Shown here piece after piece: positions 5,967 to 14,317 of a stretch of 64,000 nt of DNA. Position 1 is the first letter of the stretch; the number at the start of each line of letters is the position of its first letter. A program made the position numbers and the translations under genes. The stretch comes from Chitinophagaceae bacterium (GTDB lineage Bacteria; Bacteroidota; Bacteroidia; Chitinophagales; Chitinophagaceae). The notes beneath the pieces were generated by a model. It was given only the letters and a program-made list of their open reading frames with translations, was not told the DNA's origin and ran no database searches. The DNA lies in NCBI GenBank assembly GCA_014379345.1, contig JACMLY010000067.1:1-64000 (forward strand), in the 5' to 3' direction.

Positions 5967-7097
5967 ATGAGTACTAAGCATAAATCAGGGGCATTTTCCA
6001 CTGGAGCAAACGGTCTTTCACAACATCATTATGTTGTGATCATGGCGGGTGGCATCGGCAGCAGGTTCTGGCCAATGAGCAGAAGTAATTTTCCCAAGCA
6101 GTTTCTCGACATTCTGAATATAGGGAAGACCCTGATCCAATCAACATATGAAAGATTTGCGGGGTTTATTCCCACGGAGAATATCTATGTTGTCACTTCC
6201 AATGAGTATGTGAATATTGTGAAGAAGCAGTTGCCGCAAATACCCTTGCAAAACATTCTGGGTGAACCATCCCGGAAAAATACCGCTCCCTGTATCGCCT
6301 ATATTTCGTTTAAACTGCAGCAACTGGATCCCAACGCTTCTTTAATTGTTGCTCCTGCAGATCATATGGTAACGGATACAGTTGCGTTTAAAAAAGTTTG
6401 CTGGGAAGCATTGAGTTTTGTGAACAAACACAATGCATTTATTACATTGGGTATAAAGCCCACCTACCCAAATACAGGCTACGGTTATATTCAATACGAA
6501 CAATACCCGGTTACGGACAATGTCTATAAAGTAAAAACCTTTACGGAAAAACCGAACCTGGAACTGGCTAAAACTTTTTTATCAAGTGGCGATTTTTTAT
6601 GGAATGCCGGCATATTTGTTTGGCAGGTAAAAAACATTATTACCGCTTTTGAAAAATTCCTGCCTGAGATGTATGATGTATTTGCCACGGAGAAAGAAAA
6701 GTTCAACACTCCCGGAGAACAGTCGGCCCTGCAGGAAATATACCCTTTGTGCACCAGTATCTCGATCGATTTTGGAATCATGGAAAAGGCCCACAATGTA
6801 TATGTGATCCCCTCATCGTTTGGCTGGAGTGACCTGGGTACGTGGAATAGCGCGTACGAAAACCTCGACCGGGATCAATTTGGAAACGCCTTTGCGGGTA
6901 AAAATGTGATGGTGCTGGATGCAAAAAATTGCATGGTTCACACGCCTGATGATAAATTGGTTGTTTTGCAGGGGTTGGAAGAGTTTATAATTGTTGACAC
7001 AAACGACGTTTTGATGATCTGCAAAAAAGACAAAGAGCAGGAAATAAAAGATTTCGTAACCGAAATAAAACGTAACCGAGGTGATAAGTACCTTTAA
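5967..7097 (+). CDS. manC: Mannose-1-phosphate guanylyltransferase
   Basis: A 376-residue nucleotidyltransferase that makes GDP-mannose from mannose 1-phosphate and GTP, feeding surface polysaccharide synthesis. The pyrophosphorylase signature MAGGIGSRFWPMSRSNFPKQ lies at about residues 27-46, and the sugar-binding FTEKPN near 193; the substrate loop SFGWSDLGTW is near 287. It lacks the C-terminal cupin phosphomannose isomerase domain of bifunctional ManC proteins, so it should be a single-function enzyme. It follows kdsD by 21 bp. Its last 30 codons are duplicated just downstream (7165-7257). The first 20 residues are not part of the fold and a later start is possible. Confidence 0.92.
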   Translation: MSTKHKSGAFSTGANGLSQHHYVVIMAGGIGSRFWPMSRSNFPKQFLDILNIGKTLIQSTYERFAGFIPTENIYVVTSNEYVNIVKKQLPQIPLQNILGEPSRKNTAPCIAYISFKLQQLDPNASLIVAPADHMVTDTVAFKKVCWEALSFVNKHNAFITLGIKPTYPNTGYGYIQYEQYPVTDNVYKVKTFTEKPNLELAKTFLSSGDFLWNAGIFVWQVKNIITAFEKFLPEMYDVFATEKEKFNTPGEQSALQEIYPLCTSISIDFGIMEKAHNVYVIPSSFGWSDLGTWNSAYENLDRDQFGNAFAGKNVMVLDAKNCMVHTPDDKLVVLQGLEEFIIVDTNDVLMICKKDKEQEIKDFVTEIKRNRGDKYL

Positions 7098-7100
7098 ACT

Positions 7101-7304
7101 GATTAGCCGATTAGCCAATTAGCTGATTAGCCAATGGTAAATTTATCAGTGTTGATGCAACTGAGTGTTGATGATCTGCAAAAAAGACAAGGAGCGGGAA
7201 ATAAAAGATTTCGTAGCTGAAATAAAACGCAGGTTGGTCGATAAGTGCCTTTACACTTCGATTAGCCCAACGGCTAATTAGCTAATCGGCCAATTGGCTA
7301 ATCG
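7101..7304. repeat. Inverted pair of GATTAGCC-type word repeats
   Basis: Right after the manC stop, the words gattagcc / aattagc repeat four times (7101-7134). The same words recur in the opposite orientation at 7271-7304 (ggctaattagctaatcgg, then ccaattggctaatcg). The 93-bp duplicated end of manC lies between the two arms. This is one of many quasi-palindromic elements in the window. Confidence 0.75.
7165..7257 (+). pseudogene. Duplicated 3' fragment of the manC gene
   Basis: These 93 bp align without gaps to 7008-7100, the last 30 codons of manC, at a constant offset of 157 bp. The frame is kept (LMICKKDKEREIKDFVAEIKR) but the stop codon has become TAC, and there is no start or upstream domain. 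Differences are about 15%, including several at third positions, so the duplication is not recent or the copy came from a homologue. It is a scar without evident function. Confidence 0.8.
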
Positions 7305-7334: not shown

Positions 7335-8048
7335 ATGGTTCCCCTTCAAAATATTTTATTCCTTGATATAGAAACGGTATCGCAGTATGCCTCATTTGAA
7401 GGACTGCCTGAAGAATGGAAAGAGTTATGGTCAAAAAAAGCGGAAGTGTTGCTACGGAATAAAGAAAACCAAACGGCCGAATCCGTATACGAACGTGCCG
7501 GAATTTATGCCGAGTTTGGAAAAGTGATTTGCATCAGTTGCGGTATTCTCCAGATCAATGGTAGTAACAAAAAATTATTGATGAAGTCTTTCTCCGGGGA
7601 TGATGAAAAAGAAATATTAAGTTCTTTTTGTGATATACTCAGCAAATGGTCGGCAGAGGGAAATAAATATTTATGTGCACATAACGGAAAAGAATTTGAT
7701 TTTCCTTATCTATGCCGCCGCATGGTGATCAATGATGTTTGTGTTCCTTCGGTACTGTCTATCAGCGGTAAAAAGCCATGGGAAGTGAATCATCTTGACA
7801 CAATGGAACTTTGGAAATTCGGTGATTTTAAAAGTTATACTTCCTTGAATTTACTGGCTTGCGCATTAGGCATCCCAACTCCAAAGGATGATATCGACGG
7901 AAGTATGGTAGGCAATATATATTGGAATGATCACGACATTCCGCGGATTGTACATTATTGCCAGAAAGATGTATTGACCGCCGCGCAGATCTATTTGCGG
8001 CTAAACAGGGAGCCTTTGATATTACCTGAAAACATAGAGATCAAATAG
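7335..8048 (+). CDS. Predicted 3'-5' exonuclease, PolB-exonuclease-like (DnaQ superfamily)
   Basis: A 237-residue ribonuclease H-fold exonuclease. The DEDD-type catalytic pattern is visible: FLDIETV near residue 9 (Asp11, Glu13), HNGKEFDFPYLCRRM near 117, and YCQKDVLTA near 207, the last giving a DEDDy-like arrangement. It resembles the stand-alone exonucleases related to the proofreading domain of family B DNA polymerases (Pfam DNA_pol_B_exo2). Its substrate, DNA or RNA, cannot be told from the sequence. It is followed after 33 bp by a RidA gene on the same strand. Confidence 0.85.
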   Translation: MVPLQNILFLDIETVSQYASFEGLPEEWKELWSKKAEVLLRNKENQTAESVYERAGIYAEFGKVICISCGILQINGSNKKLLMKSFSGDDEKEILSSFCDILSKWSAEGNKYLCAHNGKEFDFPYLCRRMVINDVCVPSVLSISGKKPWEVNHLDTMELWKFGDFKSYTSLNLLACALGIPTPKDDIDGSMVGNIYWNDHDIPRIVHYCQKDVLTAAQIYLRLNREPLILPENIEIK

Positions 8049-8081
8049 ACTCCGGCTCTATCATAGAGAACATCAAACAAT

Positions 8082-8474
8082 ATGCATATGCAAAGAACGA
8101 ATTATTCATCCGGCGCTAAATGGGAAGATATTGTTGGATACAGCAGGGCGGTCAAAATAGGAAATACCATAGAGGTGACCGGCACCGTAGCCGTTGACGA
8201 GCAGGGCGAAGTTGCAGGGAAAGGCAATGCTTACGAACAAACAAAATTTATAATTGAAAAAATAGAGAAGGTGTTACAAAGGGCAGGCGCATCTTTAAAA
8301 GATGTTGTCCGTACAAGAATGTTTGTAACCGATATTTCGAAATGGGAAGAATATGGACAAGCCCATGGAGAATTTTTTAAAGACATTAAGCCATGCACGT
8401 CCATGATAGAGATAAGTGCCCTCATCGATCCTGCATACCTGATAGAGATAGAGGCTACCGCTATTATTGGGTGA
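8082..8474 (+). CDS. RidA/YjgF-family enamine/imine deaminase
   Basis: A 130-residue member of the RidA family, which hydrolyses reactive enamine and imine intermediates released by PLP enzymes. Conserved features are the early GNTIEVTGTVAVD core strand, the VVRTRMFVTDISKWEEYG segment carrying the substrate-anchoring Arg, and the end (LIEIEATAI). A second ATG two codons later is an alternative start. The next gene encodes a PLP aminotransferase, which fits the known role of RidA in clearing PLP-enzyme by-products, although that pairing is inference. Confidence 0.88.
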   Translation: MHMQRTNYSSGAKWEDIVGYSRAVKIGNTIEVTGTVAVDEQGEVAGKGNAYEQTKFIIEKIEKVLQRAGASLKDVVRTRMFVTDISKWEEYGQAHGEFFKDIKPCTSMIEISALIDPAYLIEIEATAIIG

Positions 8475-8551
8475 TGCCTGATCAATTTCAGATCACATCC
8501 TCCCTTCTGAATGCAATTTGGGAAATCCGGTTATTTTTACCGTTTAACATT

Positions 8552-9706
8552 ATGATGATCCCAACCATCCAGTCGAAGTTGCCACAAGTAGGCACAAGTA
8601 TTTTCACGGTCATGAGTGCTTTGGCGACGGAGACCGGGGCCATTAATCTCGGGCAAGGATTTCCGGATTTTCCGATGAACGCTCAGCTGATTTCACTTGT
8701 GAACCGTGCAATGAAAGATGGATACAATCAGTACGCTCCCATGCCGGGGTGGATGCCGCTGCGCGAGTCGATTGCAGAGAAGATTTATCTTTTATACGGC
8801 TCCCAGGTTCATCCCGAAACAGATATTACTATAACACCAGGAGGGACGTACGCTATCTATACCGCTTTAACGACTGTATTACAACCGGGGGATGAGGTGA
8901 TTATTTTTGAGCCCGCCTATGACAGTTACATTCCCAATGTTGAGGTAAATGGAGCTGTACCGGTTTTGATTGATTTAAAATTTCCCGGATACAAAATAGA
9001 CTGGAAGGAAGTTCGGCGTAGAATCAGTCCCAAAACCAGGATGATCATGCTCAATTCCCCGCATAACCCAACAGGAGCGATACTTGATGAAGAAGATATC
9101 AATGAGCTTCGGGCAATTGTTGAAGGGACTAATATTATTATTTTGTCGGATGAAGTGTACGAACACCTGATCTTTGATAATATCCCGCATCAATCTATCT
9201 TGCGATACCCGGACCTGATGAAAAGAAGTTTTGTATGTTTTTCGTTTGGTAAAGTATATCATTGCACCGGTTGGAAGCTCGGTTATTGCGTTTCATCTGC
9301 TGCACTCACGAAAGAGTTCAGGAAAGTTCACCAATTTAATTGTTTCAGTTGTCATACTCCTTCGCAGATTGGATTGGCAGAGTTTCTATCGGATAAGAAT
9401 TCCTACACGACACTCGGTGCTTTTTTGCAAAAGAAACGAGATTATTTCCAGGATTTGATGGGGCAGACAAAATTCACTCCTATTCCAAGTTATGGTAGCT
9501 ACTTTCAATGTTATAAATACGACCGCATCAGCGACGAGAGCGATAAGGATTTTGCGATTCGGATCACAAAGCAATATGGGGTAGCATCAATTCCCGTCTC
9601 GGCTTTTTACCATTCTGGCAAAGACAATAAGGTGATCCGTTTCTGCTTTGCAAAAAAAGAAGAAACACTGGAGCAAGCTGTTGAAAAGCTTACTAAAATA
9701 AAATAG
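8552..9706 (+). CDS. PLP-dependent aminotransferase, methionine aminotransferase (YbdL) type
   Basis: A 384-residue class I aminotransferase close in pattern to E. coli YbdL: the start IQSKLPQVGTSIFTVMSALA, then INLGQGFPDFP, NQYAPMPGW, the NSPHNPTGA motif, SDEVYEHLIF, and SFGKVYHCTGWKLGYC with the PLP-binding Lys at about residue 234. These enzymes transaminate methionine and some aromatic amino acids with 2-oxo acids. The open frame begins much further upstream, inside the RidA gene, but homology starts only at the ATG pair 8552/8555. No signal peptide; a cytoplasmic homodimer is expected. Confidence 0.92.
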   Translation: MMIPTIQSKLPQVGTSIFTVMSALATETGAINLGQGFPDFPMNAQLISLVNRAMKDGYNQYAPMPGWMPLRESIAEKIYLLYGSQVHPETDITITPGGTYAIYTALTTVLQPGDEVIIFEPAYDSYIPNVEVNGAVPVLIDLKFPGYKIDWKEVRRRISPKTRMIMLNSPHNPTGAILDEEDINELRAIVEGTNIIILSDEVYEHLIFDNIPHQSILRYPDLMKRSFVCFSFGKVYHCTGWKLGYCVSSAALTKEFRKVHQFNCFSCHTPSQIGLAEFLSDKNSYTTLGAFLQKKRDYFQDLMGQTKFTPIPSYGSYFQCYKYDRISDESDKDFAIRITKQYGVASIPVSAFYHSGKDNKVIRFCFAKKEETLEQAVEKLTKIK

Positions 9707-9750
9707 TAGCACCCTGTACAGTCGGCAGTCGATAGAGGAGAAAAAATAAA

Positions 9751-9781
9751 TTTGGAAGGACAAACCTTAATCGTATATTTG
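9751..9781 (+). promoter_or_regulatory. arsR promoter (TTTG-N19-TATATTTG)
   Basis: TTTG at 9751-9754 and TATATTTG at 9774-9781 are separated by exactly 19 bp, an excellent match to the Bacteroidota -33/-7 consensus. The start codon of arsR is 71 bp further on. The -7 box lies inside an operator-like palindrome. Confidence 0.85.
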
Positions 9782-9785
9782 CGAT
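9770..9785. promoter_or_regulatory. Upstream ArsR operator candidate overlapping the -7 box
   Basis: ATCGTATATTTGCGAT has half-sites ATCGTAT and TTGCGAT, the second differing at two positions from the perfect complement ATACGAT. It covers the -7 element, so a bound repressor would block RNA polymerase. Confidence 0.65.
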
Positions 9786-9831
9786 ATAAGATTGAAGACA
9801 GTAAAAATGTCTTTTTTTTAAGCATCAACCC

Positions 9832-9847
9832 ATCGTATAAATACGAT
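9832..9847. promoter_or_regulatory. Downstream ArsR operator candidate (perfect palindrome)
   Basis: ATCGTAT-AA-ATACGAT is a perfect 7+7 palindrome ending 5 nt before the arsR ATG. It shares its half-site with the upstream palindrome; the centres are 62 bp apart, close to six helical turns. Confidence 0.75.
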
Positions 9848-9852
9848 TAACT

Positions 9853-10188
9853 ATGGCCATTCACAAAAAAGAAGAATTTGGTATTAAAGAACAGGAGTTA
9901 GCAGATTTTGCCAAAGCCCTGGCACATCCTGCAAGGATTGCCATATTAAAATTGCTGGCACAGCGTAATGAATGTATCTGTGGAGAGCTCGTCGAAGTAT
10001 TGCCATTGGCTCAATCAACAGTTTCCCAACATCTAAAGGAATTGAAGAATGCTGGTCTGATCGATGGCGCCATTGATGGCCCACGCTCCTGCTATTGCAT
10101 CAACTGGAAAGCATTTGAGAAATTCAATAAAGAATTTTCTGAGCTTTTCAATAGACTGAAAGTGCAAAATGAAAAAGCTTGTTGCTAG
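9853..10188 (+). CDS. arsR: ArsR-family arsenic-responsive repressor
   Basis: A 111-residue winged-helix repressor that should leave DNA when it binds As(III). The fold is clear: [16 protein letters not shown], then [30 protein letters not shown] with the recognition helix. Cys41 and Cys43 (CICGEL) match the metal site at the start of the DNA-binding helix of classical ArsR proteins. Further cysteines at 80 and 82 and a terminal Cys110-Cys111 could add ligands. It opens the arsenic locus and is preceded by two matching palindromes, so it is probably autoregulated. Downstream genes (peptide, arsM, arsN2, arsC) share its strand. Confidence 0.95.
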
Positions 10189-10384
10189 ATGTTCTTTCCA
10201 GACACCGCCCTTCATGGCAGCGCAGAGATACTAGAGATTTGAGGGGCTAATTATTAAGGAACTCCGTAAAAGCCAAACTTATGAGATTCCCGGCATCTCG
10301 AAATACAAAGGATTAGAAATCAAAAGATAGTAATACGGATTTGAATCTTAACCCAAAATTTTCTTAACCATAAATAGCATAATC

Positions 10385-10477
10385 ATGAAAAACGACAATC
10401 AAATGCAGAACGATCCAGGCTGTTGTTTGCCCGGGAGCGAGTGTTGCAGCGGCATGACTGAAATAGGATGCTGCTAG
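10385..10477 (+). CDS. 30-residue Cys-pair peptide of the ars locus
   Basis: A short frame between arsR and arsM, ATG 10385 to TAG 10475-10477. It has six cysteines in three adjacent pairs (13-14, 20-21, 29-30) within a Gly/Pro/Ser-rich setting, with no membrane segment. The core PGCCLPGSECC strongly resembles the tail of ArsM in the same locus (KPCCEPGSGCC), and both end in Cys-Cys. This composition suggests soft-metal or As(III) thiolate binding, but that is inference; no named family is known to me. An A-rich segment precedes the ATG and no strong Shine-Dalgarno is seen, as is usual in this phylum. A strong terminator follows after 6 nt, which supports a defined transcript end for it. Confidence 0.7.
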   Translation: MKNDNQMQNDPGCCLPGSECCSGMTEIGCC

Positions 10478-10483
10478 AAAATT

Positions 10484-10519
10484 AGCAGGAGAACAAAAAT
10501 TGTTCTCCTGCTTTCTTTT
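10484..10519 (+). terminator. Intrinsic terminator between the Cys-pair peptide and arsM
   Basis: A perfect 11-bp stem (AGCAGGAGAAC at 10484-10494, complement at 10502-10512, 7-nt loop) is followed by TTCTTTT. It sits 18 bp before the arsM ATG, so it may end the arsR-peptide transcript or attenuate read-through into arsM. Confidence 0.85.
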
Positions 10520-10537
10520 AACATACAATCAAATATC

Positions 10538-11377
10538 ATGAAACAAAAAGATTCTGAAATTAAAGCACTGGTGAAAGAAAAATATGGCCAGATCGCGAAC
10601 CAGTCGCGGGATCAAAACCTCTCCTCCTGCTGTGGAGCTGCATCTTCCTGCGGCAATGATGCCTATGTTATTATGGCTGACGATTATTCAACCCTGGAGG
10701 GATACAACTCCGATGCCGATCTTGGGTTAGGTTGTGGACTGCCAACCGAATTTGCGAAAATAAGAGAAGGAGATACGGTGATCGATCTGGGTAGCGGAGC
10801 TGGAAATGATTGTTTTGTTGCCCGAAAATTTGTTGGGGCGAACGGAAAAGTAATCGGTATTGATTTTACGGATGCTATGATTTCAAAAGCGAGGCAGCAT
10901 GCCGAGAAGGTCGGTTTTAATAATGTAGAGTTCAGGCAAGGCGATATTGAAGAAATTCCCGCAACAGCCAATACCGCGGATGTTGTCATCAGTAATTGTG
11001 TTTTGAACCTTGTACCCGATAAGGCAAAAGTATTCAGCGAGATCTTTCGCGTACTGAAACAGAAAAAGCATTTCTCGATTTCTGATATTGTACTCGAAGG
11101 CGAACTGCCCGATAATCTGAAAGAGGTGGCGGAGTTATATGCCGGATGTATCTCGGGCGCCATTCAAAGAGAGGAATACCTGAGTATTATTAAACAGACA
11201 GGGTTCACAAACATCGATATTCAAAAAGAGAAAAAAATTTCAATTCCTGATGATATTCTGATTCAATATATTTCGCAGGACGAAATAGAACAATGGAGAA
11301 GTTCCGGTGTAGGCATCTATAGCATTACCGTGTATGCAGAAAAACCATGTTGTGAACCCGGCAGCGGCTGTTGTTAA
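10538..11377 (+). CDS. arsM: Arsenite S-adenosylmethionine methyltransferase ArsM
   Basis: A 279-residue methyltransferase that adds methyl groups from SAM to As(III), giving less retained or volatile methylarsenicals. The SAM site VIDLGSGAGND lies at about residues 81-91. Three As-ligating cysteines of the family fit Cys66 (LGLGCGLPT), Cys154 (ISNCVLNLVPD) and Cys204 (YAGCISGAI), with a further Cys31-Cys32 and Cys38 near the start. The C-terminal tail KPCCEPGSGCC is a Cys-pair extension matched by the small peptide encoded just upstream. It should act in the cytoplasm. No arsenite efflux pump is seen in the cluster, so methylation and acetylation may carry the detoxification here, unless a pump lies elsewhere. 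Confidence 0.96.
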   Translation: MKQKDSEIKALVKEKYGQIANQSRDQNLSSCCGAASSCGNDAYVIMADDYSTLEGYNSDADLGLGCGLPTEFAKIREGDTVIDLGSGAGNDCFVARKFVGANGKVIGIDFTDAMISKARQHAEKVGFNNVEFRQGDIEEIPATANTADVVISNCVLNLVPDKAKVFSEIFRVLKQKKHFSISDIVLEGELPDNLKEVAELYAGCISGAIQREEYLSIIKQTGFTNIDIQKEKKISIPDDILIQYISQDEIEQWRSSGVGIYSITVYAEKPCCEPGSGCC

Positions 11378-11390
11378 GTAGTATAACTAT

Positions 11391-11398
11391 TAATTTTG
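11391..11398 (+). promoter_or_regulatory. -7 element before arsN2
   Basis: TAATTTTG fits TAnnTTTG and ends 4 nt before the arsN2 ATG at 11403. A TTG at 11371-11373 is 17 bp upstream. An internal promoter giving an almost leaderless arsN2 message is possible. Confidence 0.4.
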
Positions 11399-11402
11399 CT
11401 TT

Positions 11403-11849
11403 ATGAATGTGATTGATCAGGCACAGGTAAGGTCCGCCACAGCAAATGACTATGAAGCGGTCGTTAAACTGTTGCAGAGCGAGAATTTGCCTGCCGAAGA
11501 TATTCCGACTGGTCTTTGTCATTTTTTTGTGATTGAGCATAATGGAAATATTGTTTCTGTGGCCGGCATTGAAGTTTATGGCCAGGAGGGTTTGCTCCGG
11601 TCAATGGTTGTTGATAAGCATTATCGCAACCAATCTCTGGCTACAACGCTATTGAATAAAATATTGGGGCATGCAATTGACCAGGGGATCGCACGCATAT
11701 ATCTGATTACAACAACGGCCGAAAAATACTTTGCAGCCAAGGGGTTTTCTGTTGTGCATAGAACTGAAGTTCCGTCGTCTATTTCTTCGTCGCAGGAGTT
11801 TAGCAAACTTTGTCCATCAACTGCTATTGTGATGACGAGAAAAACCTAA
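11403..11849 (+). CDS. arsN2: GNAT acetyltransferase of the ArsN2 type
   Basis: A 148-residue GCN5-related N-acetyltransferase. The acetyl-CoA-binding part is LLRSMVVDKHYRNQSLATTLL (residues about 62-82, where the usual Q/RxxGxG/A loop is reduced to RNQSLA), followed by the ArsN2 hallmark IYLITTTAEKYFAAKGF and the end FSKLCPSTAIVM. ArsN-type enzymes in arsenic operons acetylate organoarsenical antibiotics such as arsinothricin or related substrates; the exact substrate of this subgroup is uncertain. It lies 25 bp after arsM on the same strand and 102 bp before arsC, consistent with one locus. Confidence 0.88.
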   Translation: MNVIDQAQVRSATANDYEAVVKLLQSENLPAEDIPTGLCHFFVIEHNGNIVSVAGIEVYGQEGLLRSMVVDKHYRNQSLATTLLNKILGHAIDQGIARIYLITTTAEKYFAAKGFSVVHRTEVPSSISSSQEFSKLCPSTAIVMTRKT

Positions 11850-11951
11850 TTAATACCGTGCATTCACTTGAATTAATTTCGATGTTACAGGGAAAGGGAT
11901 GAAAGAAAAAAGGCAGACGTTTATTAGCAGAAATATAATTACTAAGTAGCG

Positions 11952-12344
11952 ATGAAAAAAAAATTATTATTTGTCTGTATAGAAAATAGCAATCGCAGCC
12001 AAATGAGCCAGGCTTTTGCAAAAATGCACGGTAAGGAAAATGTGGAAGCATATAGCGCAGGCAGCAGGCCTGGTGGTATCGTAAATCCAAAAGCAATTGC
12101 TGCCATGCGAGAACTGGGCTACGATCTTACCAGGCACGATCCGAAGTCTTTATCCGAGGTACAACAGTATGCTCCCTTCGATGTGGTAATAACCATGGGA
12201 TGCGGCGATGCCTGCCCATGGATGCCTGCAAAGCAATTCATTGACTGGGTAATTCCCGATCCGAAACAGATGGAGCCCCCAGAGTTTAACAAAGTGCGTG
12301 ACCATATCGAAGAAAAAGTAAAAGAATTGTTGAAAACTATTTAG
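11952..12344 (+). CDS. arsC: Arsenate reductase, low-molecular-weight phosphatase family
   Basis: A 130-residue LMW-PTP-fold arsenate reductase that reduces As(V) to As(III) with thiol cofactors. The catalytic loop is CIENSNRSQM, a C-x5-R motif with Cys9 and Arg15. The redox pair further on is Cys84 and Cys88 in MGCGDACPW, a closer spacing than the Cys82/Cys89 pair of thioredoxin-linked staphylococcal ArsC and nearer to the MGCGDxCP form of other branches, so the electron donor cannot be fixed from sequence. It supplies the As(III) that ArsR senses and ArsM methylates. A HAD gene follows after 23 bp. Confidence 0.93.
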   Translation: MKKKLLFVCIENSNRSQMSQAFAKMHGKENVEAYSAGSRPGGIVNPKAIAAMRELGYDLTRHDPKSLSEVQQYAPFDVVITMGCGDACPWMPAKQFIDWVIPDPKQMEPPEFNKVRDHIEEKVKELLKTI

Positions 12345-12367
12345 ACATTTGCAGCCAAATATTTTTC

Positions 12368-12982
12368 ATGCCGCAGTTTAATACAATTGTTTTTGATCTT
12401 GGTGGAGTATTGGTCGACTGGAATCCGGATTATGTGTACAAGACCATTTTTGATAAGGAAGAAGAAATGCGATGGTTTTATGAAAACATCTGTACGCACG
12501 ACTGGAACGAAAACCAGGATGCAGGAAGGAGTTTACTGGAAGCTACCGAGGAACTGGTAAAAAAATTTCCTGAACACGAGAAAAATATCCGTGTTTATTA
12601 TGACCGCTGGGAAGAAATGTTGGGTGGGCCAATCCAGGAAACAGTCGAGATTCTCCGGTATCTGAGATATAATACGAGCAATCGCCTGTACGCGCTAACC
12701 AATTGGAGCCACGAAACCTTTCCCATTGCTTTGAAACGGTATGAGTTTTTGCATTGGTTTGATGGGAGAATCGTATCCGGGGAAGAAAAAACAAGAAAGC
12801 CATTTAAAGAAATATATCAATTCCTGATTGAGCGTTTTCAGATCAATCCCATTACTGCGATTTATACGGATGATAATGTACGGAACCTGATCCCTGCTGC
12901 CGAATTGGGGTTTCATACAATACATTTTCAATCTCCCCAACAATTCAAAAAAGAGTTACAGCAATTGCAGGTTATTCCATAG
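12368..12982 (+). CDS. HAD-superfamily phosphatase (subfamily IA)
   Basis: A 204-residue HAD hydrolase. Motif I is FDLGGVLVDWN with the nucleophile Asp10 (the usual second Asp of DxD is Gly12, as in the GGV subgroup), motif II ALTNWS, a Lys near 143 in KTRKPFKEIY, and motif IV IYTDDNVRNL. It resembles the YihX/epoxide-hydrolase-N type sugar phosphatases. It follows arsC by only 23 bp and may be co-transcribed, but nothing links it to arsenic chemistry. A palindromic repeat begins right at its stop. Confidence 0.85.
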   Translation: MPQFNTIVFDLGGVLVDWNPDYVYKTIFDKEEEMRWFYENICTHDWNENQDAGRSLLEATEELVKKFPEHEKNIRVYYDRWEEMLGGPIQETVEILRYLRYNTSNRLYALTNWSHETFPIALKRYEFLHWFDGRIVSGEEKTRKPFKEIYQFLIERFQINPITAIYTDDNVRNLIPAAELGFHTIHFQSPQQFKKELQQLQVIP

Positions 12983-12983
12983 T

Positions 12984-13055
12984 GACCCGGGATGACCCGG
13001 GATGACATCCTTGCACCGATTCAATTTTTGCAATCATGAACAAGGATGTCATCCC
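12984..13055. repeat. GGGATGACATCCTT palindromic element, copy 1
   Basis: GGGATGACATCCTTG (12999-13013) is matched by its exact complement at 13041-13055, with a 27-bp loop. Just before it, GATGACCCGG is tandemly repeated (12984-13000). The same 14-bp arms occur at 63804-63862. The arm is itself nearly palindromic. Confidence 0.8.
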
Positions 13056-13162
13056 TGAATCCGATTGCAGAATTGTTAAAAGGTTGCTTATGCAACTATC
13101 TTAAGAATTCTATAACAGCATTCGCTATCTGCCATTCGTACATTAGAGTAACAAGAATTTTT

Positions 13163-14317
13163 ATGAAAAAGATAAATATCATAGGTGTGTTGCTGGCGGC
13201 ACTGGTTTTGGCCTCCTGTGGTACTTCGCAGAAGTTTCACGCGTCGGTGAGTGAAGACAAACCATTGTTCGCGGCCATTAACGAGTTGAATAAGCGACCT
13301 TCTAACGCAAAGGCTCAAAAAGACCTGCAGCACTTTTATAAAGCATCGGTCGACCGTCATGAAAACGCCATCGCTGCTTATAGGAAAAGCAATGACGAAA
13401 AGCGTTGGGACAAGATCATTAATGAGCTAAATGCTTTGCAGAATATGTATTCGGGCATTGCTGCAACACCAGGTGCATCTTCGCAAGTACAACCAAAAAA
13501 TTATTTCCAGGAATTACAAACGGTCAAAGAGGAAGCAGCGGCAGATTTCTATAGCGAAGGAAATACTTATGTAGAAAAAGAAGGAAGGGAAAATAATTTG
13601 CGTGCTTACCAGGCATTTAAAAAAGCAGATAAATATGTAAACGGGTATCGTGATGTTGAAACGCTTATCAAAGAGTCGTATGAAAAAAGCGTGGTCAATG
13701 TGGTGATCAACCCGATTGAGGACAACGACATTTTCTTTTCGGGTGCAAACGGTTGGGGCAACGATTTTAATTACAGGTCAGAAGATTACCAGCAATCATT
13801 GGCGAGGGACCTGGGAGGGAAGAACGGAAACAAAAATGCCGTGCGGTTTTTTACAGACAGGGATGCGTATCGTGAGCGGATAGATGCAGACTGGGTGGTA
13901 GATGTGAAGTGGAGAGGTATAGACCCGATGCGCTCTACGCCTCATCAATATAACCGGCAGGCTTCAAAAAATGTCCAGATCGGTTCCGACACATCCGGCA
14001 AACCCGTGTACAAAACTGTTTATGCAACGGTTTATGTAACTCAGCGGTCATATACAGTGCGGGGCGACCTTGACTATAGAATTGCTGATGTACAAACAAA
14101 GAACAATATTGATTATGGGGTGATCAGGGATGATGTTAGCTGGACAGAAAGCAGGGCTACTTATTCCGGTGATTCAAGGGCGTTAGGCCAGGAAGACTGG
14201 TATCTGATCAACAACAGAAATGATTTCAACAATCCTTCAAGGGGAGATATTCTTAATAGCCTGATGCGAAAAATGTATCCTGATCTCAGGAGAAGGATAC
14301 AGCAGGCAACAGATTAA
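13163..14317 (+). CDS. Outer-membrane-type lipoprotein of unknown function
   Basis: A 384-residue lipoprotein: MKKINIIGVLLAALVLASC carries a lipobox with lipidated Cys19. I chose the ATG at 13163, because the longer open frame starts within the upstream repeat and would bury the signal peptide. The N-terminal half is helical and charged with tetratricopeptide-like spacing (FYKASVDRHENAIAAYRKS, EGNTYVEKEGRENNLRAYQAFKKADKY); the C-terminal half is rich in aromatic beta segments (TVYATVYVTQRSYTVRGDLDYRI). No named family is recognised. A terminator lies 40 bp beyond its stop, inside the end of the convergent gene. Confidence 0.8.
   Translation: MKKINIIGVLLAALVLASCGTSQKFHASVSEDKPLFAAINELNKRPSNAKAQKDLQHFYKASVDRHENAIAAYRKSNDEKRWDKIINELNALQNMYSGIAATPGASSQVQPKNYFQELQTVKEEAAADFYSEGNTYVEKEGRENNLRAYQAFKKADKYVNGYRDVETLIKESYEKSVVNVVINPIEDNDIFFSGANGWGNDFNYRSEDYQQSLARDLGGKNGNKNAVRFFTDRDAYRERIDADWVVDVKWRGIDPMRSTPHQYNRQASKNVQIGSDTSGKPVYKTVYATVYVTQRSYTVRGDLDYRIADVQTKNNIDYGVIRDDVSWTESRATYSGDSRALGQEDWYLINNRNDFNNPSRGDILNSLMRKMYPDLRRRIQQATD

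Follow-up and report, generated by a model that had tools for sequence, protein, structure and literature searches.

Bacterial metallothioneins of the SmtA type are small, Cys-rich proteins that belong to a metal-responsive regulon of the ArsR/SmtB family and are about double the length of the peptide described here. Vicinal Cys pairs occur in ArsD (PF06953), an arsenic metallochaperone and regulator encoded in ars operons. In the ArsD of R773, two such pairs (Cys112-113 and Cys119-120) form a C-terminal CC-x5-CC arrangement that is tied to a regulatory role, and the N-terminal residues Cys12, Cys13 and Cys18 are reported to be essential (PMC4562236). As(III) takes three thiolates and methylarsenite two, and intracellular arsenic chelation is credited to eukaryotes (PMC11868830). 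The arsRMC operon of Arsenicibacter rosenii is reported to be induced 158- to 351-fold by As(III); its repressor, ArArsR, carries cysteines at positions 41, 43, 80, 82, 107 and 108, the C-terminal pair being described as dispensable for sensing (PMC11868830). In Bacillus sp. CDB3, the ars1 operon contains an internal terminator-like hairpin and yields a short and a long transcript, and the long transcript increased more than one fold when the hairpin was removed (PMC4562236).

The gene characterized here lies in a window of 64,000 nucleotides, the whole stretch of Chitinophagaceae DNA that was analyzed, and it is a real small gene, under selection, that belongs to the arsenic-resistance operons of one bacterial family. 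Like ArsD, its product carries vicinal Cys pairs, including a CC-x5-CC, and is encoded in ars operons; unlike ArsD, which has a 123-position profile and needs its N-terminal Cys residues, the peptide is 16 to 32 residues long, and PF06953 matches neither the window peptide nor any of 21 members. It shares small size and Cys richness with the SmtA-type metallothioneins, but its Cys residues lie almost only in vicinal pairs and most members have no histidine. No metallothionein profile in Pfam or NCBIfam matches any of the 21 members, which return no NCBIfam match of any kind and a single unrelated hit in Pfam (one member of the 21, E 0.2).

The CC-x5-CC arrangement, present in 23 of 23 three-pair members (a set chosen by spacing) and in 21 of 21 profile rows, with a further CC behind it in the peptide, also closes several longer proteins. 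The ArsM tail of Bacteroidota shares the core CC-x-P-G-S-x-CC, often in the same operon, and 21 of 25 parsed ArsM tails end in CC-x5-CC; unlike these tails, the peptide is a free-standing gene with its own start, an N-terminal Q-[KN]-D-P, a further CC pair and its own hairpin, and it occurs where arsM is absent. An ArsI/CadI-family protein of Cupriavidus respiraculi (L103:4974-5471, NF041414 over cut-off) has a CC-rich tail ending NDPACCGPRSSCC, and a DUF6428 protein from another family of the order (L068:1075-1545, PF20001) ends KGCCTPNSGCC; in both, unlike in the peptide, the motif is the tail of a longer protein. The ArsI/CadI-family gene precedes an arsC-like gene, and the frame behind the DUF6428 gene is presumably phosphatase-like. 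Judged by its motif, the peptide is a free-standing version of an element otherwise seen as a protein tail (ArsD, ArsM, ArsI/CadI, DUF6428). It would work like a small metalloid-binding protein, and the profiles do not support its membership in the ArsD or metallothionein families.

The peptide gene and its ars locus

The peptide gene translates to MKNDNQMQNDPGCCLPGSECCSGMTEIGCC followed by a stop, its six Cys residues forming three pairs with spacings x5 and x7, and it is located with arsR on one side and arsM on the other (Table 1). The preliminary description had given this frame and the ArsM ending KPCCEPGSGCC, and both were confirmed. No signal peptide is apparent by eye. The frame is the only ATG-started one of at most 40 residues with at least three CC pairs on either strand of the whole window, and 100 dinucleotide shuffles contained none; with at least two CC pairs, the window again holds one such frame, against a mean of 0.19 in the shuffles. 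A chance frame is ruled out by these shuffles, by the relatives found in profile searches and by codon-level constraint. The window peptide belongs to no named protein family in Pfam or NCBIfam, Rfam gives no match over 8000-13500 at E<=1, and, judging by titles and abstract openings, no paper brought up by literature searches describes such a peptide.

The six Cys residues of the window ArsR correspond to those of ArArsR (PMC11868830). The window genome (about 98% complete) encodes one ArsM, plus ArsC, and has no match to Acr3, ArsB, MIP or ArsD. Elsewhere in the window, positions 7165-7281 partly repeat the 3' end of the gene before them (5967-7097, which we take to be mannose-1-phosphate guanylyltransferase-like), with LMICKKDKEREIKDFVAEIKR against LMICKKDKEQEIKDFVTEIKR, and are a tandem duplication remnant. 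An intergenic stretch at about 12984-13055, located behind a presumably HAD-like gene and before the next one, contains short direct repeats TGACCCGGGA and an inverted repeat GGATGACATCCTTG / CAAGGATGTCATCC.

Table 1. Features of the ars locus in the window
Feature	Coordinates	Strand	Evidence
ArsR-operator-like palindrome ATCGTATATTTGCGATATAAGAT, upstream of arsR	9770..9792	+	sole window match at 3 or fewer mismatches; none in 100 shuffles
arsR, ArsR/SmtB repressor, Cys 41, 43, 80, 82, 110, 111	9853..10188	+	NF033788, 72.5 bits, cut-off 55
small Cys-pair peptide gene, 30 aa, CC-x5-CC-x7-CC-stop	10385..10477	+	translation, family searches, coding constraint, shuffle test
intrinsic-terminator-like hairpin (stem-loop 10484-10512) with T-rich tail, directly after the peptide stop	10484..10519	+	hairpin scan, hairpin test
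arsM, arsenite methyltransferase, ending CCEPGSGCC	10538..11377	+	NF008823, 357 bits, cut-off 263
CC-x5-CC tail of ArsM, look-alike of the peptide core	11348..11374	+	sequence comparison
arsN2, arsenic-resistance N-acetyltransferase	11403..11849	+	NF040501, 157.7 bits, cut-off 125
arsC, LMWP-type arsenate reductase	11952..12344	+	PF01451 over cut-off; arsenate reductase models below theirs

Family distribution and coding constraint

A search with the single peptide identified a first relative in another genus (G007, 55% identity, E 2.7e-4), which is syntenic, with the order arsR, peptide, arsN2 and arsM absent from the stretch. Profiles of 2, 13 and 21 members were run against, respectively, 394 genomes of the window's family, a phylum sample (395 genomes) together with an order sample (396 genomes), and 369 genomes of the family. 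The preliminary description had proposed looking for short CC-pair frames between arsR and arsM, or near arsM, in other Bacteroidota, and such frames exist: 30 distinct intact genes were collected, all 30 of them beside ars genes and probably all in Chitinophagaceae, sharing the unannotated pattern Q-[KN]-D-P-G-CC-x5-CC-x(n)-CC-stop. This count leaves out G111 (in-frame TGA), G280 (found later) and a remnant in G116. In the phylum sample, 7 of 395 genomes matched at E<=0.01; G000 and G007 hold real members, and four ars queries matched nothing in the stretch fetched for each of the 5 others. Of the 396 genomes in the order sample, 14 matched, 10 of them real; the 4 others comprise an ArsM tail (L070), the DUF6428 tail (L068) and two loci without ars matches (L069, L071). 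The real members of both samples all fall within the window's own family. A fixed DNA pattern searched over 84,980 species returned 33 loci, 13 being the peptide in ars loci labelled Chitinophagaceae, Chitinophagales or Bacteroidetes; the remaining 20 were one ArsI/CadI-family protein tail and 19 loci without a match to four ars queries. No plasmid copies of the gene were found.

Within the family, the distribution is patchy. The 21-member profile matched 23 of 369 genomes, 19 of which carry the peptide gene by context (including G111), the others being ArsM tails judged by position (G081, G212, G287) and a match far from ArsM whose locus has no match to six ars queries (G249, L112). Since 19 of 369 family genomes carry the peptide against 248 of 369 with ArsM, the peptide is dispensable. 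Among the best 30 ArsM loci fetched, 11 have the peptide (counting L143, which is G111 with its in-frame TGA) and 19 have none; divergent forms in these loci show two pairs (L138), a mixed form (L139) or four pairs (L123, L130, L141). Four-pair forms, for example MKNQMQVSNCCDTTNDCCGGNTDCCEGMGCC, are located between arsR and arsM in L123, L130, L141, L161, L162 and L184, where arsR is of a different type with 52-55% identity to that of the window. The number of CC pairs therefore varies, with two in L150, L165, L113 and L163 and four in L161, L130 and L162, and the closing CC is kept.

Absence of the frame from close relatives, which the preliminary description named as evidence against it, was found in part. 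The same-genus genomes G001-G003 give no match to the 21-member profile, but in another genus the gene is kept in 6 of 6 ArsM-bearing genomes of the sample. Because the sole ArsM match among G001-G003 (in G001) lies in a locus with a different arsR type, where no peptide is seen, the result points to absence of the locus type more than to loss. Two imperfect copies were also observed. In G111 (L035 / L160), an in-frame TGA stands before the last ..SCC, where several relatives have W, indicating a decaying copy or a sequence error. In G116 (L168), a decayed remnant MRSNIQKQKGGGRC with its hairpin retained adjoins arsR-arsM-acr3-arsC.

The Cys pairs are the most conserved part of the peptide; outside them, D and P are nearly invariant and Q, K/N and G are frequent. 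Coding constraint was measured in 23 three-pair members, a set chosen by spacing, from which 7 of the 30 are omitted because they have two or four pairs or are spaced differently. All six Cys residues are invariant in this set, TGT and TGC are both used at every Cys position, and mismatches by codon position amount to 0.24, 0.26 and 0.54. All 253 pairs show pS>pN, and the pooled dN/dS over 11 disjoint pairs is about 0.15, a value biased downward because most members were found by protein profile. In a genus set that removes this bias only partly (6 genomes and one related contig), the pooled pN/pS is 0.22, its pairs not being independent; two of these six genomes (L150, L165) have a peptide with two CC pairs only. 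The comparison of synonymous with non-synonymous change suggested in the preliminary description accordingly identifies the peptide as a coding gene under purifying selection.

Operator-like palindrome, hairpin and gene order

The palindrome upstream of arsR and the hairpin behind the peptide stop were both absent from the preliminary description. In 22 of 30 loci, a scan of 3.5 kb on the strand of the gene yields a single palindrome like ATCTTATATTTGCGATATAAGAT (up to 6 mismatches), and its position is upstream in every case. For five of the eight others (L066, L094, L159, L098, L113) the stored stretch ends before the region upstream of arsR, and the other three are the four-pair loci L161, L130 and L162, which have GCAATATTGCAATAA just upstream of the peptide's ATG instead. 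By eye, the palindrome of the window type and GCAATATTGCAATAA resemble the DNase I footprint published for ArArsR (PMC11868830).

The window hairpin has a 13-bp stem starting 6 bases past the stop, followed by TTCTTTT. A terminator-like hairpin with a T-rich tail begins 0-8 bases past the stop of 27 of 30 peptide genes (exceptions L153, L158 and L075), or 26 of 30 before the loop limit was relaxed from 10 to 14 after inspecting the data. The same test at other stops of these loci gave 0/28 for arsR, 0/28 for arsM, 0/11 for arsN2, 2/20 for arsC, 0/7 for acr3 and 0/3 for aqpS, and it was met in 4 of 600 simple shuffles. Because the stem sequences are unrelated between groups, it is the structure that is kept and not the sequence. 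Where ars genes come behind it, the hairpin would yield an abundant short and a rarer long transcript. Bacillus CDB3 ars1 resembles the peptide loci in having a terminator-like hairpin within an ars operon; unlike in the peptide loci, that hairpin lies between arsC and arsD, and the accessible text of the report mentions no Cys peptide (PMC4562236).

Of the 30 intact genes, 22 lie directly after arsM, 5 (the window among them) between arsR and arsM, and 3 after arsR with no arsM in the stretch (L146, L152 and L113/L114; G015 read from two short contigs). The constant partner is arsR, wherever the stretch is long enough to show it. One group of five loci (L147-L150 and L098) has the peptide gene in last place, facing a convergent gene. 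Either acr3 or aqpS is present in L146, L151, L154, L161, L162, L164, L090, L091, L094 and L130, and the neighbouring frames read in L152, L153, L155, L157 and L163 show no known arsenic pump, the permease of G344 being the one frame among them that was scanned against profiles. The 94% complete draft genome G344 has an arsR-peptide-arsC locus, no match to ArsM or Acr3 at E<=1e-5, and an EamA-like permease gene upstream of arsR (L152:3209-4108, PF00892). Look-alikes of this permease were seen by eye upstream of arsR in L153, L157, L163 and L100. A PAP2-superfamily protein of 305-322 residues with a secretion-like start is encoded in the ars operon directly after arsR in two genera (L147:6681-7595 and L158:5592-6557, both on the minus strand), and the acr3 match in L091 (2260-3100) is interrupted, its two pieces lying either side of a gap of about 60 residues.

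Proposed arsenic binding and its alternatives

The explanation that we favor, with a probability of roughly 0.6, is that the peptide gene is part of the arsR regulon, is induced by arsenite as the last segment of a hairpin-ended transcript, and encodes a cytosolic peptide that binds and buffers trivalent arsenic. Arsenite would cause ArsR to leave its operator, and transcription would then proceed through arsR, and in most relatives also through arsM, before reaching the peptide gene. The hairpin directly after the peptide would end or thin the transcript, so that the peptide gene would occupy the abundant 3' end of a short mRNA made on induction. Remaining in the cytosol, the peptide would bind trivalent arsenic through its Cys pairs, with three thiolates per As(III) or one pair per methylarsenite, and would buffer arsenic, whether produced by ArsC or coming from outside the cell, until methylation, export or plain retention. 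In short, the peptide probably soaks up arsenite inside the cell.

Thiol chemistry and the ars setting together are the grounds on which we infer arsenic binding, and because the Cys pairs are the most conserved part of the molecule, an arsenic-binding, metallothionein-like peptide is the best available interpretation. The preliminary description had proposed a metallothionein-like peptide that binds or delivers arsenic; the binding half is favored by a selected coding gene, by ars genes beside all members and by the conserved pairs, and delivery to ArsM has been weakened. A ligand peptide suits the family better than a fold, since members differ in how many CC pairs they have, from two to four, yet keep such pairs and the closing CC. 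Arsenic binding is also consistent with loci short of a known sink, namely G344 and the window genome, and with an operator-like palindrome resembling the ArArsR footprint, whose operon is described as As(III)-induced (PMC11868830). A buffering or chelating role would fit loci with and without known pumps. Against binding stand the patchy distribution, with its blank in G001-G003 and the decayed remnant in G116, and the fact that paired Cys bind other soft metals too; the permease gene of G344 weighs against the argument from missing pumps. A search of solved structures with the profile gave six weak matches, all granulin peptides (best E 0.0043), which we take as paired-Cys look-alikes, and which caution that CC patterns can also stem from disulfide bonding. 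A more far-reaching proposal is an ArsR-induced, genetically fixed arsenic chelator that would itself be the arsenic sink in arsR-peptide-arsC loci such as that of G344, and whose CC pairs would be binding modules subject to gain and loss; we hold it to be possible but doubtful, less likely because G344 has the EamA-like permease gene.

If the peptide were instead a detached ArsM tail, it would hand arsenite or methylarsenite to or from ArsM, as its core, so like the ArsM ending CCEPGSGCC, and its position directly after arsM in 22 of 30 loci might suggest. Such a role is unlikely: in three of the 30 loci the stretch contains arsR and the peptide gene but no arsM, 19 of the best 30 ArsM loci fetched lack the peptide, and a tie to ArsM is argued against because G344 has its arsR-peptide-arsC locus without an ArsM or Acr3 match. 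The related proposal in the preliminary description, that the gene arose by copying the 3' end of arsM, is weak as well, the core being only slightly closer to the tail of its own locus (8.56 mismatches of 27) than to those of other loci (9.20; permutation P 0.028 over 18 loci, with a statistic that ignores kinship). A peptide that competes with ArsR for arsenite and so sets the level of induction, in the manner of ArsD, would explain why arsR is the constant partner and would echo the regulatory CC-x5-CC of ArsD; this is quite improbable, given that the peptide is too small for a DNA-binding domain, that Pfam scans show no ArsD homology, and that any arsenite-binding peptide would compete as a side effect.

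The hairpin invites a different explanation, in which the frame is the leader peptide of an attenuator: slow translation of its Cys codons, under a thiol or Cys shortage caused by arsenite, would block the adjacent hairpin so that downstream genes are read. Six Cys codons, the last two adjoining the stop, a stem 0-8 bases further on in 27 of 30 genes, ars genes behind the peptide in many loci and the intra-operon hairpin reported for Bacillus CDB3 ars1 (PMC4562236) would all suit this model. Its likelihood is nonetheless small, because in L147-L150 and L098 nothing is left to attenuate, even if genes do come behind the peptide in most other loci; residues other than Cys are conserved, and inspection by eye of the window and some relatives revealed no conserved antiterminator. 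The window does contain a weak partial alternative hairpin at 10471-10488 (minus strand), not seen by eye in relatives. Among short Cys-rich peptides RiPP precursors are frequent, and a strong hairpin comes next here, so the frame might encode a modified peptide product or be a chance frame in a non-coding element. Both are very improbable: the neighbouring frames of 16 loci, most of these frames being unannotated, show no evident maturation gene, and third codon positions mismatch twice as often as the others, which would not be expected of non-coding DNA.

Arsenic operons rank among the best catalogued bacterial gene sets, and frames of this size are nevertheless missed by gene callers. As the source of an arsenic-binding product, a selected Cys-pair gene of 16-32 residues that has its own hairpin would bring chelation into bacterial arsenic resistance as a further step, and the peptide could account for operons in which arsenate is reduced although no arsenic pump is evident. 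It would also be a minimal arsenic-binding module for use in sensors and clean-up. Were the peptide itself the arsenic sink of loci such as that of G344, it would be a bacterial counterpart of the intracellular arsenic chelation of eukaryotes.
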